DNA of 39,727 bases from Bacteroidota bacterium. Lineage in GTDB: Bacteria; Bacteroidota; Bacteroidia; Palsa-948. Positions 178-37,621 of this stretch are shown here, piece after piece. The stretch spans positions 1 through 39,727 of the forward strand of contig SCSP01000129.1 of assembly GCA_004297845.1 (NCBI GenBank), read 5' to 3'. The notes under the pieces are model-generated. The model was not told where the DNA came from. It was given only the letters and a program-made list of their open reading frames with translations, and ran no database searches. The position numbers and the translations under genes were made by a program. How positions within the stretch are numbered: position 1 is the stretch's first letter; the number at the start of each line of letters is the position of its first letter.

Positions 178-1098
178 ATGAGTAATACGCTAACAATAAT
201 AATCACTTCTCTTGCATCAGCATTGGTTTTTTGTGGAATAATGCGTTTGTTTTTTTTCAACAGAGTAAAGAAAATATCTGATCAAATAAAGTTACAGCGT
301 AAGTCTCAATACCCAATACCCAATACCCAATACCCCCTTAAAGAATTAGAACATCAAGTAAAGGAATGGTCCGCTGAACGCAAAGAAGAAATAGAACAGC
401 TCGAAAAACTGGAGAACTACCGCAAAGAATTTCTCGGAAATGTTTCTCACGAATTAAAAACACCTATCTTCAACATTCAAGGATACATTTCCACTCTTCT
501 GGACGGTGGACTGGAAGACAAAACCATCAACCGCAATTACCTTCAGCGCGGAATGAAAAGCGTTGACCGCATGATCGCCATTGTGGAAGACCTGCAAACG
601 ATTACTCAGCTTGAAAAGGGCGAACTTGAAATTGAAGAAGAATGTTTTGATATAGTTGCGCTGACAAAAGATGTGATAGATGCACAGGAACTGAAAGCAA
701 AGGAGAAAAAGATTTCACTCGAACTGACAAACGCCTCGGAACAACCCATTTGGGTGCTTGCCGATAAATTCAGGATACGGCAGGTGCTTGTAAACCTGGT
801 GGTAAATTCCGTGCGCTACGGAAAAGAAAACGGAAAAACCACCATCAAAATATCGGATGCCGGGGAAAAGATAATTGTGGAAGTAGCGGATTCAGGAATT
901 GGAATTCCAAAAGAACATATATCCAGGATATTTGAACGTTTTTACCGGGCGGATAAGTCCCGCTCCCGCGAACAGGGAGGTACAGGCCTGGGTCTCTCCA
1001 TCGTCAAACATATTCTTGAAGCCCACGGACAAACCATCCGAGTGATGAGCACCGAAGGTGCCGGCTCGGTGTTTGCGTTTACGTTAAAGAAAGGATAA
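178..1098 (+). CDS. PhoR-like sensor histidine kinase
   Basis: A 306-residue membrane-bound sensor kinase, partner of the regulator just upstream. One hydrophobic segment (about residues 5-27) is followed by a short linker, the dimerisation/phosphoacceptor box FLGNVSHELKTP (His91), an N box around NLVVNSVRYG (206-215), the G1 box DSGIGIP, the F box FERFYRAD and the G2 box GGTGLGLS. There is no periplasmic sensor domain, as in short PhoR/WalK-like kinases, so the stimulus is unknown. The linker contains four tandem copies of a 7-base unit (307-334), read as QYPIPNTQYP; this is foreign-looking and could shift the frame if the copy number changed. The 3' end overlaps the stop of the minus-strand glycosyltransferase by 20 bases. 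Confidence 0.93.
   Translation: MSNTLTIIITSLASALVFCGIMRLFFFNRVKKISDQIKLQRKSQYPIPNTQYPLKELEHQVKEWSAERKEEIEQLEKLENYRKEFLGNVSHELKTPIFNIQGYISTLLDGGLEDKTINRNYLQRGMKSVDRMIAIVEDLQTITQLEKGELEIEEECFDIVALTKDVIDAQELKAKEKKISLELTNASEQPIWVLADKFRIRQVLVNLVVNSVRYGKENGKTTIKISDAGEKIIVEVADSGIGIPKEHISRIFERFYRADKSRSREQGGTGLGLSIVKHILEAHGQTIRVMSTEGAGSVFAFTLKKG
307..334 (+). repeat. four tandem copies of CAATACC inside the kinase gene
   Basis: Four perfect head-to-tail copies of the 7-mer CAATACC lie between the membrane segment and the His box of the kinase. Seven is not a multiple of three, so gain or loss of one unit would break the reading frame. Confidence 0.9.
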
Positions 1099-2221
1099 AC
1101 TCGTCCACCGCCCTCCTAAATTCATGTCCGGAATAATTCCCTGCAAACCCTGAATATTTTTCGGATTCCTTCAACGCAACTTGCAGATCAAACTCCTTTT
1201 GTGAAATCGAATAAGCAATTTTTTTTTTCATAAAATGTTTTGCCAGGTATTCCTGCTCCGTTTGTCCGGGCGTAGGAACAAAAATCGCTTTTTTCCCAAG
1301 CACCGCCAGTTCCATCACGGTAGAGTACCCCGGCCGGCTCAAAACAATTTCTGAAGCGAGTACCTCCTTCTGCAATTCTTCCGAAGTAAGATAAGATACC
1401 ATTTCAACATTCCTCGTAATTTTTCTTCGTTCATTTTTTTCAGTAACCCCTTGAACAATCAGCATCCCCCTTGTAAAGGGGGTGGTTTCGCCCTGCGAAA
1501 CCGGGGGATTGGCTGCTAACTGTTCCAAAATTACTTTCTCCAACACCGTCCTTTGCGGTTCCGGACCCGAAAGTATGATCAGGAGGTTGTCTTTGGCTGT
1601 TACTTTCTCCTTTGAAGGGGGACTGAGGGGGCTGTTAAACCTGGACAACACCCCAATAAACTTTGCATTCCCCGGCAACGGAAACTTATGTGCAAGATCA
1701 CCTGAAAGCCCTCTCCGATGCGTGTCCGGCACCCAGCAATCCGTATATTTCGAAATATATTTTTTATTCAACCGATGTATCCACTTTTCTCCGAATGTTG
1801 AAGCAAAGCGAAAACCATCGCTTAGCGGGAGAAATTTCACCATCAGTTGATGTGTTATAAAAACACAGGGCACTTCCCTACTCCACAACCCAAAACGATT
1901 ATCTGAGATCACCGCATCTATTTTTTTCTCTTTTATTATTTTTTTCAGCAGTTCATGCTCGCGTTTTATTCCTGCAAGAATTTTGGGCACCTGAGCAGCG
2001 ATCTTCATGACCATAGAACCGCTTTTCGGGTAAGAAATGTTGTAACCGGGCATTACCACAAATTCGAGAGGTGGAAACTCTTTCTGTAGCAGTTGCATAG
2101 ACCTTCCATCGGCACCAATAACCACTTCCATTCCTTTTTCAACCAAGTACCGTATAATAGGAATACACCTCGTGGCATGACCAAGTCCCCAGTCGAGCGG
2201 TGCGATGAGAATTCTTTTCAT
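1079..2221 (-). CDS. MurG/GT28-like glycosyltransferase
   Basis: A 380-residue protein of the GT-B fold. The N terminus carries the acceptor-side loop PLDWGLGHATRC (about residues 8-19), and the C-terminal half has the nucleotide-sugar site pattern LSRPGYSTVMELAVLGK followed by PTPGQTEQEYLA, as in MurG-like enzymes. No membrane segment is visible; enzymes of this kind sit at the inner face of the cytoplasmic membrane and move a sugar from a UDP donor. The acceptor cannot be predicted. Two stretches in the middle (encoded near 1604-1636 and 1461-1514) are C-rich palindromic repeats read in frame as NSPLSPPSKEK and NPPVSQGETTPFTRG; they probably form surface loops between the two domains. It is transcribed alone, convergent with the kinase. 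Confidence 0.85.
   Translation of the reverse strand: MKRILIAPLDWGLGHATRCIPIIRYLVEKGMEVVIGADGRSMQLLQKEFPPLEFVVMPGYNISYPKSGSMVMKIAAQVPKILAGIKREHELLKKIIKEKKIDAVISDNRFGLWSREVPCVFITHQLMVKFLPLSDGFRFASTFGEKWIHRLNKKYISKYTDCWVPDTHRRGLSGDLAHKFPLPGNAKFIGVLSRFNSPLSPPSKEKVTAKDNLLIILSGPEPQRTVLEKVILEQLAANPPVSQGETTPFTRGMLIVQGVTEKNERRKITRNVEMVSYLTSEELQKEVLASEIVLSRPGYSTVMELAVLGKKAIFVPTPGQTEQEYLAKHFMKKKIAYSISQKEFDLQVALKESEKYSGFAGNYSGHEFRRAVDEFILSLT
1461..1514 (-). repeat. C-rich modular palindromic repeat, intragenic copy
   Basis: Read on the minus strand: CAGCCAATCCCCC, then a hairpin GGTTTCGC/GCGAAACC, then ACCCCCTTTAC and AAGGGGGAT. The same arms, around a different hairpin, occur at 37395-37481. Here the element lies in frame inside a glycosyltransferase gene. 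Confidence 0.85.
1604..1636 (-). repeat. second C-rich repeat inside the glycosyltransferase
   Basis: On the minus strand AACAGCCCCCTCAGTCCCCC is followed by TTCAAAGGAGAAAG. The AACAGCC and CCCCCTT-AAGG parts match other copies of the C-rich family in this window. It is read as NSPLSPPSKEK. Confidence 0.65.
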
Positions 2222-19115: not shown

Positions 19116-20332
19116 GGATTCTGCAGCTTTGCAATAAGTTCGTCTACCCTCCCAAAGACGGTGGCGCGATTGGCATCTTCAATTATACCAAAGCATTTTC
19201 AACGCTCGGATGCGAGGTGGTCATGCTTGCGATGAACACGACCAAGCATCCGTATGATATTAATGACCTTCCGGAAGAAGTAAAAAAAATGGCGGAATGG
19301 GTAACGATCGATGTGGACAATAAACTGAAACCGTTTTCTGCCCTGATCGCCATCCTGCAGAACCGTTCCTATAACATCGAACGTTTTATTTCTTCAGCCT
19401 ACAATGACTGCCTCATAGAACTGCTTCACCAACAACCATTTGACATCATACAACTTGAAGGACTGTACCTTTCTCCCTACGTGGAAACCATACGCGCATT
19501 TTCGGAAGCAAAAATTGTAATGCGTTCGCACAACATAGAGCACGAGATATGGCAACGAAGCGCTGAGAATGAAAAAAGTTTCCTGAAAAGGTGGTATCTT
19601 AAAATATTGGCCAGGCAATTGCGTGACTACGAGATATCAAGGCTGAACAAATATGACCTGATAACCTCCGTTACAGAAAGAGATGCGCAGATGCTGAAGT
19701 CTTTCGGCTGTAAACTGCCTATGCACGTCTGCCCGGCTCCTTACGATGAAACCGTACTGAAGCCGGACAAAACAAAAATGGAATTTCCATCCCTGTTCTT
19801 TATTGGCGCGCTGGACTGGGCTCCCAACGTAGAAGGATTAGAGTGGTTTCTGAAAAATGTGTGGCCGAAGCTGGCTGTTCTCCCCCTTGCAAAGGGGGCG
19901 CAGGGGGATTTGAAGTTTTATGTTGCTGGCAGAAATGCTGACAAAGCCAGACTCCCTGAACTGAAAAATGTTATTGTTGTGGGAGAAGTAGAAAACGCCT
20001 GCGATTTCATGAACTCAAAAGGCCTGATGATCGTGCCCTTGCTTTCCGGCAGTGGCATACGCGTTAAGATCATTGAAGGAATGGCGCTCGGCAAAACAAT
20101 AGTCACCACTTCGCTGGGTGCCGAAGGAATCCCCTGCAAGGACGGACAGAATATCCTGATAGCAGATACACCCGAAATCTTTGCGGAAAAGATCATTAAA
20201 TGTATAAATGAAAAAATGACCTTTACGATAATAGGAGACAATGCCTGCCGGTTTGCAAAACAACGGTTCAGCAGTCAGGAAGTGGTGAAAAAACTTTTGG
20301 AGTTCTTTAAACAACATATTGCTTTGGACTAA
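19112..20332 (+). CDS. family 4-like glycosyltransferase (GT-B)
   Basis: A 406-residue soluble GT-B enzyme. The N terminus has KFVYPPKDGGAIGIFNYTKAF, the acceptor-side loop, and the C-terminal half has the donor site SGSGIRVKIIEGMALGKTIV followed by TSLGAEGI, as in family 4 (GT1-like) enzymes. It probably transfers a sugar in surface polysaccharide or LPS synthesis, consistent with the LptF/G-like gene overlapping its start. An in-frame C-rich repeat (19882-19898) is read as LPLAKGAQGDLK between the two domains. The stop overlaps a possible start of the next gene by one base. Confidence 0.85.
   Translation: MRILQLCNKFVYPPKDGGAIGIFNYTKAFSTLGCEVVMLAMNTTKHPYDINDLPEEVKKMAEWVTIDVDNKLKPFSALIAILQNRSYNIERFISSAYNDCLIELLHQQPFDIIQLEGLYLSPYVETIRAFSEAKIVMRSHNIEHEIWQRSAENEKSFLKRWYLKILARQLRDYEISRLNKYDLITSVTERDAQMLKSFGCKLPMHVCPAPYDETVLKPDKTKMEFPSLFFIGALDWAPNVEGLEWFLKNVWPKLAVLPLAKGAQGDLKFYVAGRNADKARLPELKNVIVVGEVENACDFMNSKGLMIVPLLSGSGIRVKIIEGMALGKTIVTTSLGAEGIPCKDGQNILIADTPEIFAEKIIKCINEKMTFTIIGDNACRFAKQRFSSQEVVKKLLEFFKQHIALD
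19876..19912 (+). repeat. C-rich palindrome inside the GT4 gene
   Basis: CCCCCTTGCAAAGGGGG (19882-19898), a perfect 7-bp stem with a 3-base loop, then CGCAGGGGGATT. It differs by one base from CCCCCTTGTAAAGGGGG at 1466-1482 in the MurG-like gene. Confidence 0.8.
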
Positions 20333-37341: not shown

Positions 37342-37500
37342 CGGTTACTAAAAACCTCACCCCTGTCCCCTCTCCTTCAGTAGAGGGGAACTAACAGCCA
37401 ATCCCCCGTCCTGACCAAAGCGTCAGGACACCCCCTTTACTCGCCTTCGCGAAGCGCTATGGCGGAGCAAGGCAAGGGGGAGAAAACAGCCGTTTATCCA
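37342..37500. repeat. C-rich modular repeat pair with nested palindrome
   Basis: The gap 37269-37622 (354 bases) between the T9SS gene and dnaG contains no gene. Copy 1 (37355-37389): ACCCCTGTCCCCTCT-CCTTCAG-TAGAGGGG. Copy 2 (37392-37489): AACAGCCAATCCCCC, hairpin GTCCTGAC/GTCAGGAC (37408-37429), ACCCCCTTTAC, an inserted segment with CTTCGCGAAG and GGCGGAGC, then AAGGGGGAGAAAACAGCC. Copy 2 has the same arms as the intragenic copy at 1461-1514 with a different hairpin. Confidence 0.85.
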
Positions 37501-37583: not shown

Positions 37584-37621
37584 CCCCCTCTCTTGGGGAG
37601 AGGGGGACAGGGGGAGAGGTG
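37584..37621 (+). repeat. C-rich hairpin repeat in the dnaG leader
   Basis: Perfect 9-bp stem CCCCCTCTC (37584-37592) / GAGAGGGGG (37598-37606), loop TTGGG, followed by ACAGGGGGAGAGGTG. It ends two bases before the dnaG ATG and would form a strong hairpin in the mRNA leader. Confidence 0.85.

Follow-up and report, generated by a model that had tools for sequence, protein, structure and literature searches.

The window, a stretch of 39,727 nucleotides analysed at its full length, contains two copies of a C/G-run repeat in which the same outer arms enclose different inner hairpins (Table 1). Both copies were verified in the window with the sequence that had been described in a sequence-only reading, including the shared arms and the AAGGGGG end. 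Copy 1 lies within a glycosyltransferase ORF; copy 2 is located between divergent genes, upstream of dnaG, with one further C/G element on either side of it, three in all. When folded as single-stranded DNA both are more stable than shuffled sequences, with z = -4.75 for copy 1 and z = -3.4 for copy 2.

Table 1. Positions of the two repeat copies, their parts and related elements in the window
Feature	Position	Strand	Remarks
Glycosyltransferase gene (PF04101/PF13528), host of copy 1	1079..2221	-	380 aa; tolerates two insertions
Copy 1	1466..1510	-	putative solo end element, hairpin class A; in frame within the glycosyltransferase ORF
Copy 1, AAGGGGG	1466-1472	-	
Copy 1, second arm ACCCCCTTTAC	1473-1483	-	
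Copy 1, exchangeable inner hairpin GGTTTCGC-AGG-GCGAAACC	1484..1502	-	class A, eight copies in five congeners
Copy 1, first arm AATCCCCC	1503-1510	-	
Second C/G element in the host ORF of copy 1, AACAGCCCCCTCAGTCCCCCTTCAAAGGAGAAAGTAACAGCC	1595..1638	-	also in frame
Short-linker family member ATCCCCC-TGCG-CCCCCTTTGCAAGGGGG, then AACAGCC	19882..19909	-	
Neighbouring family member CCTCACCCCTGTCCCCTCTCC..GAGGGGAACTAACAGCC	37355..37399	+	
Copy 2	37400..37491	+	putative solo end element, hairpin class D and nested palindrome; terminates in AACAGCC tag
Copy 2, first arm AATCCCCC	37400-37407	+	
Copy 2, exchangeable inner hairpin GTCCTGAC-CAAAGC-GTCAGGAC	37408..37429	+	same stem on contigs C337 and C401
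Copy 2, second arm ACCCCCTTTAC	37430-37440	+	
Copy 2, primary C/G hairpin CCCCCTT...AAGGGGG	37431..37480	+	loop divided by a 33-nt insert
Copy 2, extra segment, TCGCCTTCGCGAAGCGCTATGGCGGAGCAAGGC	37441..37473	+	nested palindrome, class K
Copy 2, AAGGGGG	37474-37480	+	
Copy 2, AACAGCC	37485-37491	+	
Third family member TCCCCCTGTCCCCCTCTCC..GAGAGGGGG	37584..37615	-	

The exact pattern CAGCCAATCCCCC...CCCCCTT occurs at two sites in the 3.47-Mb genome, both in the window, and the reversed-pattern control at none. With relaxed arms (ATCCCCC, linker, CCCCCTTTRCAAGGGGG), about ten hairpin-bearing copies are found genome-wide together with short-linker copies, so that the family is not confined to the pair first noticed. 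These genome counts derive from pattern searches and from a sample of ~20% of the genome (~696 kb), in which 88 core elements were present as many-copy dispersed palindromes. The family follows a common plan of ATCCCCC, a variable linker and a CCCCCTT-loop-AAGGGGG hairpin. Some copies have a linker of 2-5 nt; in others a hairpin occupies this position, the one taking the place of the other between constant arms. Hairpin linkers are seen on own-genome contigs C78, C131, C207, C220, C231 (both window copies), C337, C401 and C124, with a weak case on C287, and linkers of 3-4 nt (CAA, TGG, TGCG) on C401, on C14 and in the short-linker member of the window. AACAGCC frequently comes next, as an A(N)0-4AACAGCC tag downstream of many own-genome copies. 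It was rejected as a universal foot of the element, being strong in the own genome (G000) and missing from the copies in the congener G006, and it is also common to a parallel family, CCTCACCCCC-x-CCCCTCTCC..GGAGAGGGG. On C14 (L143:9360-9578), four or five C/G elements stand in tandem with AACAGCC after each.

Searching the genus yielded about 45 linkers at the hairpin position, in six of the seven congeneric genomes, and none in G001. These linkers fold with a mean of -4.5 kcal/mol as DNA, compared with -0.95 for shuffles, and 29 of the 45 individually reach p <= 0.05. They fall into classes, among them A (GTTTCGCAAAGCCGAAAC), B (GCCACTTCGTGTGC), C (GTCACGCGAAGCGCGTGAC), D (GTCCTGAC-GTCAGGAC), E (GTTCCCAAAGCGGAAC) and F (ATCCCGC-GCGGGAT), that are found repeatedly, at separate loci and in more than one species. 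Within a class the differences are slight and partly compensatory, as in GCCAC..GTGTGC compared with GGCAC..GTGTCC; between classes the stems of the 45 linkers share no similarity and form no intermediate series that point mutation could have produced. One class can occur with different primary loops, class B also stands beside a different primary hairpin (L414), and G029 and an Oscillospiraceae MAG each have a DUF559-encoding unit, a structure described below, whose two ends carry different hairpins. The suggestion that conserved arms with interchangeable hairpins were assembled and did not drift apart is thus upheld, and the data support a modular hairpin position in preference to drift of a single palindrome. 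A swappable hairpin implies that structure is conserved here and not sequence, which offers a clue to recognition.

Insertion of the inner hairpins into the element as independent repeats was considered and rejected, as classes A-G essentially never occur outside the arms at the sampled loci and the class D stem was never found outside them in a 695-kb sample. Class K, the palindrome nested in the loop of copy 2, is alone among the hairpins in being free-standing, with relatives at L132 and L133. Palindromes of the same TCGCCTTCGCGAAGCGCTATGGCGGAGCAAGG type are also nested in C/G hairpins at L120 and L077/L155, and the nested palindrome reported for copy 2 is accordingly a separate repeat.

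Comparison of orthologous sites shows that the elements come and go between congeners. At the copy 1 site, G000 and G002 have a class A hairpin and G005 a short-linker element in degenerate form; in G001, G003, G004 and G006 the site is empty. The glycosyltransferase ORF has three such permissive sites, occupied by different family members in different species, and the region upstream of dnaG in G002, G004 and G006 is without the three C/G elements. Well within open frames of >= 200 codons lie 43 of 79 sampled elements, compared with 66% of random segments, so that coding DNA is avoided only mildly; where repeats enter coding genes in frame, the proteins are altered. At one intragenic site, a C/G element in G004 (L354) is matched in G006 (L408) by a different palindrome, AATCCTTCAAGG..CCTTGAAGGATT.

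These observations bear on the view that the repeats are immobile terminators or RNA-processing hairpins that diverged by drift and compensatory change. Their stable stem-loops and the small compensatory differences within hairpin classes are what such a view would predict. We nevertheless consider it highly improbable, given that long ORFs harbour copy 1 and roughly half of the elements, that copy 2 sits between divergent genes, that presence varies between congeners at the same site, and that no series of intermediates links the hairpin classes.

Comparison of orthologous sites also exposed, in G003, a block of two inverted elements around a small ORF that is missing from G001. The enclosed ORF encodes a DUF559 (PF04480) protein. 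An equivalent arrangement is found in the own genome on contig C401, where a DUF559 gene is enclosed by two inverted copies of the element to which the window copies belong; the left end carries hairpin D and is identical to copy 2 over 41 nt, and the other end has a CAA linker. In all fetched DNA there are 15 DUF559 genes, from Bacteroidetes, Nitrospinota, Gastranaerophilales, Oscillospiraceae and a Wirthbacteria bin. C/G-run palindromes lie near all 15, in most cases on both sides and inverted, and inverted ends enclose the gene at C401, L369, L402, L284 and elsewhere. Because most of these loci had been fetched through the element itself, an independent test was made with plasmid DUF559 genes found by protein. 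A C/G hairpin lies within <= 300 bp of 17 of the 19 genes and on both sides of 10; a rough detector left 9 of the 19 without a detected hairpin on one or both sides. Random positions, taken from five of these plasmids, gave 3.0% for a hairpin within that distance and 0/4000 for hairpins on both sides.

A Novosphingobium unit shows the same plan of constant arms and swapped hairpins with other arms, in Deinococcus psychrotolerans a DUF559 gene lies inside a long inverted repeat between paaD and paaZ, and two sub-families differ in having the hairpin in opposite orientation relative to the gene. For DUF559 in viral contigs, a pattern scan found no relative. Solo elements are vastly more numerous than DUF559 genes. 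The 696 kb sampled of the own genome contain three such genes and 88 elements, and 339 kb of G006 contain two and 12; 998 kb of G001 (31% of the genome) contain no such gene and about three real elements, a comparison that is supportive only, being confounded by lower G+C, by the 31% sampling, by the element-guided choice of G000 contigs and by the absence of Y1 transposase genes as well.

The enclosed protein matches PF04480 with E = 1e-29 and 91-105 bits, against a cut-off of 20.6. Its invariant residues include E35, Q55, D64, E75, D77, G78 and H81 (E, D, ExDG, H). The structure model has a mean pLDDT of 81; by fold it matches NGO0050 (3hrl) and the homing nuclease I-Bth0305I of the EDxHD type, and E. 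coli Vsr weakly. By Pfam match and modelled fold, it is a predicted Vsr-like PD-(D/E)XK nuclease of the DUF559 family. YcjD-type proteins had previously been placed in PD-(D/E)XK and connected to Vsr (PMC1189080). A Caulobacter DUF559 protein leads to the SOS response when a DNA methylase is missing (PMC12907096), and in Legionella, DUF559/transposase segments have been noted as recombination hotspots (PMC12308824).

Whole DUF559 units likewise vary in presence. Besides the site that is filled in G003 and empty in G001, a histidine kinase gene and a response regulator gene flank a unit in G006, and the orthologous G000 site is empty. In G000 itself, a whole unit sits in frame within tsaB (L134:3800-4958, minus strand), the gene remaining a single continuous frame of 385 codons; tsaB is generally considered essential. 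Insertion junctions are not sharp, the congeners being about 70-84% identical and the flanks too diverged.

One explanation of these units is that a homing-type DUF559 nuclease cuts pre-existing C/G palindromes and its gene is copied into the break, the palindromes themselves multiplying by replication slippage or repair annealing. The presence of I-Bth0305I among the nearest solved folds, the location of units inside genes, and the C-rich near-palindrome CCCTCTCTCCGGAGG already present at the empty G000 site are consistent with it. Such homing would, however, leave the halves of one palindrome on either side of the gene, whereas two complete ends are observed, often with different inner hairpins, and we regard this explanation as unlikely. 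Known EDxHD nucleases reside in introns or fractured genes. The DUF559 protein shares their fold and motif and differs in that its gene sits between inverted C/G palindromes.

A second candidate for the mobilising enzyme is a Y1 HuH transposase, either a RAYT or an orphan of subclass 1.2, that would spread REP-like elements in trans as single-stranded DNA, with DUF559 as cargo or as a tolerated neighbour. Mobilisation in trans by a RAYT-like transposase of the IS200/IS605 family had been raised as a possibility in the sequence-only reading, and the own genome does have eight PF01797 (Y1 transposase) matches, several of which fit the DH[IV]H / NQ-EHH signature of subclass 1.2. This subclass is found in Bacteroidetes and Cyanobacteria, and its substrate is not known (PMC6006769). 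The strong single-stranded hairpins would suit such an enzyme, as would G001, which lacks Y1 genes and nearly lacks elements. Yet among 32 Y1 loci examined across the genus, not one has C/G elements on both sides, and the idea of a RAYT partner is not supported. The RAYT-like gene at L092:1415-2106 (PNHFH, YIHQNP) has its own unrelated hairpins, GACCTGCAAGG/CCTTGCAGGTC, on both sides and is an ordinary REPtron of another repeat. At L090 and L091, partial Y1 transposase matches lie beside a common hairpin, GGTCGGGATT/AATCCCGACC.

Known REPtrons resemble the units described here in their short dispersed palindromes, in solo copies that far outnumber one linked enzyme gene flanked by repeats, and in some in-frame insertions (PMC6006769, PMC3733652). 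They differ in that the gene here encodes a Vsr-like DUF559 nuclease of an unrelated superfamily, not a HuH Y1 enzyme; in that a GT[AG]G foot of the GTAG/GGAG type is absent, the tag in the own genome being GGCTGTT/AACAGCC, which the G006 copies do not have; and in that a second, exchangeable hairpin stands between constant runs. Spread of the elements by a Y1 enzyme seems to us unlikely, with some probability left for a role in trans, as G001 lacks Y1 genes too.

With moderate confidence, we interpret the window copies as solo ends of small DUF559-encoding mobile elements, on which the DUF559 protein would act in trans; the association with DUF559 is observed directly, and from it we infer the mobilisation. 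Against this reading weigh the blurred insertion junctions, the plasmid DUF559 genes that have no detected hairpin on one or both sides, the opposite hairpin orientations of the two sub-families and the great excess of solo elements over DUF559 genes. A complete unit measures about 0.5 kb and consists of the predicted nuclease gene (PF04480, Vsr/EDxHD-homing-nuclease-like) between two inverted C/G-run ends, each with a primary hairpin (CCCCCTT..AAGGGGG) that a linker separates from a second C/G run. The nuclease may recognise the folded C/G ends and cut there or at similar C/G palindromes, whereupon an end or the whole unit would be copied into the break, and it could serve solo ends in trans in the same way. 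The hairpin between the two C-runs would be a structural spacer, indifferent in sequence; strand annealing or gene conversion through the two flanking runs, which are the same in every copy, could replace one hairpin by another. More tentatively, with slightly less than even confidence, we propose that these units represent a new class of mobile element in bacteria, whose C/G-run double-hairpin ends are mobilised by a Vsr/EDxHD-like DUF559 nuclease and not by a transposase, and whose inner hairpin is exchanged by annealing through the runs.

Other small repeats share parts of this layout. MITEs and insertion sequences with terminal inverted repeats, too, carry an enzyme gene between inverted ends and have non-autonomous derivatives, but the ends here are multi-hairpin with low-complexity C/G runs, and there is no DDE or HuH transposase. 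The empty sites are too diverged to reveal a target duplication. BOX elements of Streptococcus pneumoniae are likewise small repeats built of modules, the outer ones constant and the inner ones variable (PMC3049150). BOX varies in the copy number of one inner module, whereas each copy here has a single unrelated hairpin, and the layout of boxA/boxC ends with tandem boxB modules is not matched. The Rickettsia palindromic elements (RPE) also lie in frame within functional genes (reviewed in PMC3733652). Their sequences are different from those of the C/G repeats. To our knowledge, no nuclease gene is linked to RPE.

In the literature covered, which is partial and leaves room for an earlier description elsewhere, no link between DUF559 and palindromic repeats was found, and the DUF559-repeat element appears to be previously undescribed. 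DUF559 is still listed as of 'unknown function' in Pfam, and a consistent association with repeats would give it a role. If its part in mobility is proven, the units would form a separate class of element with an otherwise REPtron-like layout. Many bacterial genomes contain short C/G palindromes in abundance, usually with no known mobiliser; a consistent DUF559 association makes their spread directly testable, and, if the proposal is true, such a class would explain many orphan palindromic repeats of the C/G type in several bacterial phyla. In E. coli K-12 (L440), a C/G palindrome, CCCCtcgCCCCtctGGGGagagggttagggtgaGGGG, lies downstream of the DUF559 gene ycjD and is perhaps a remnant end.
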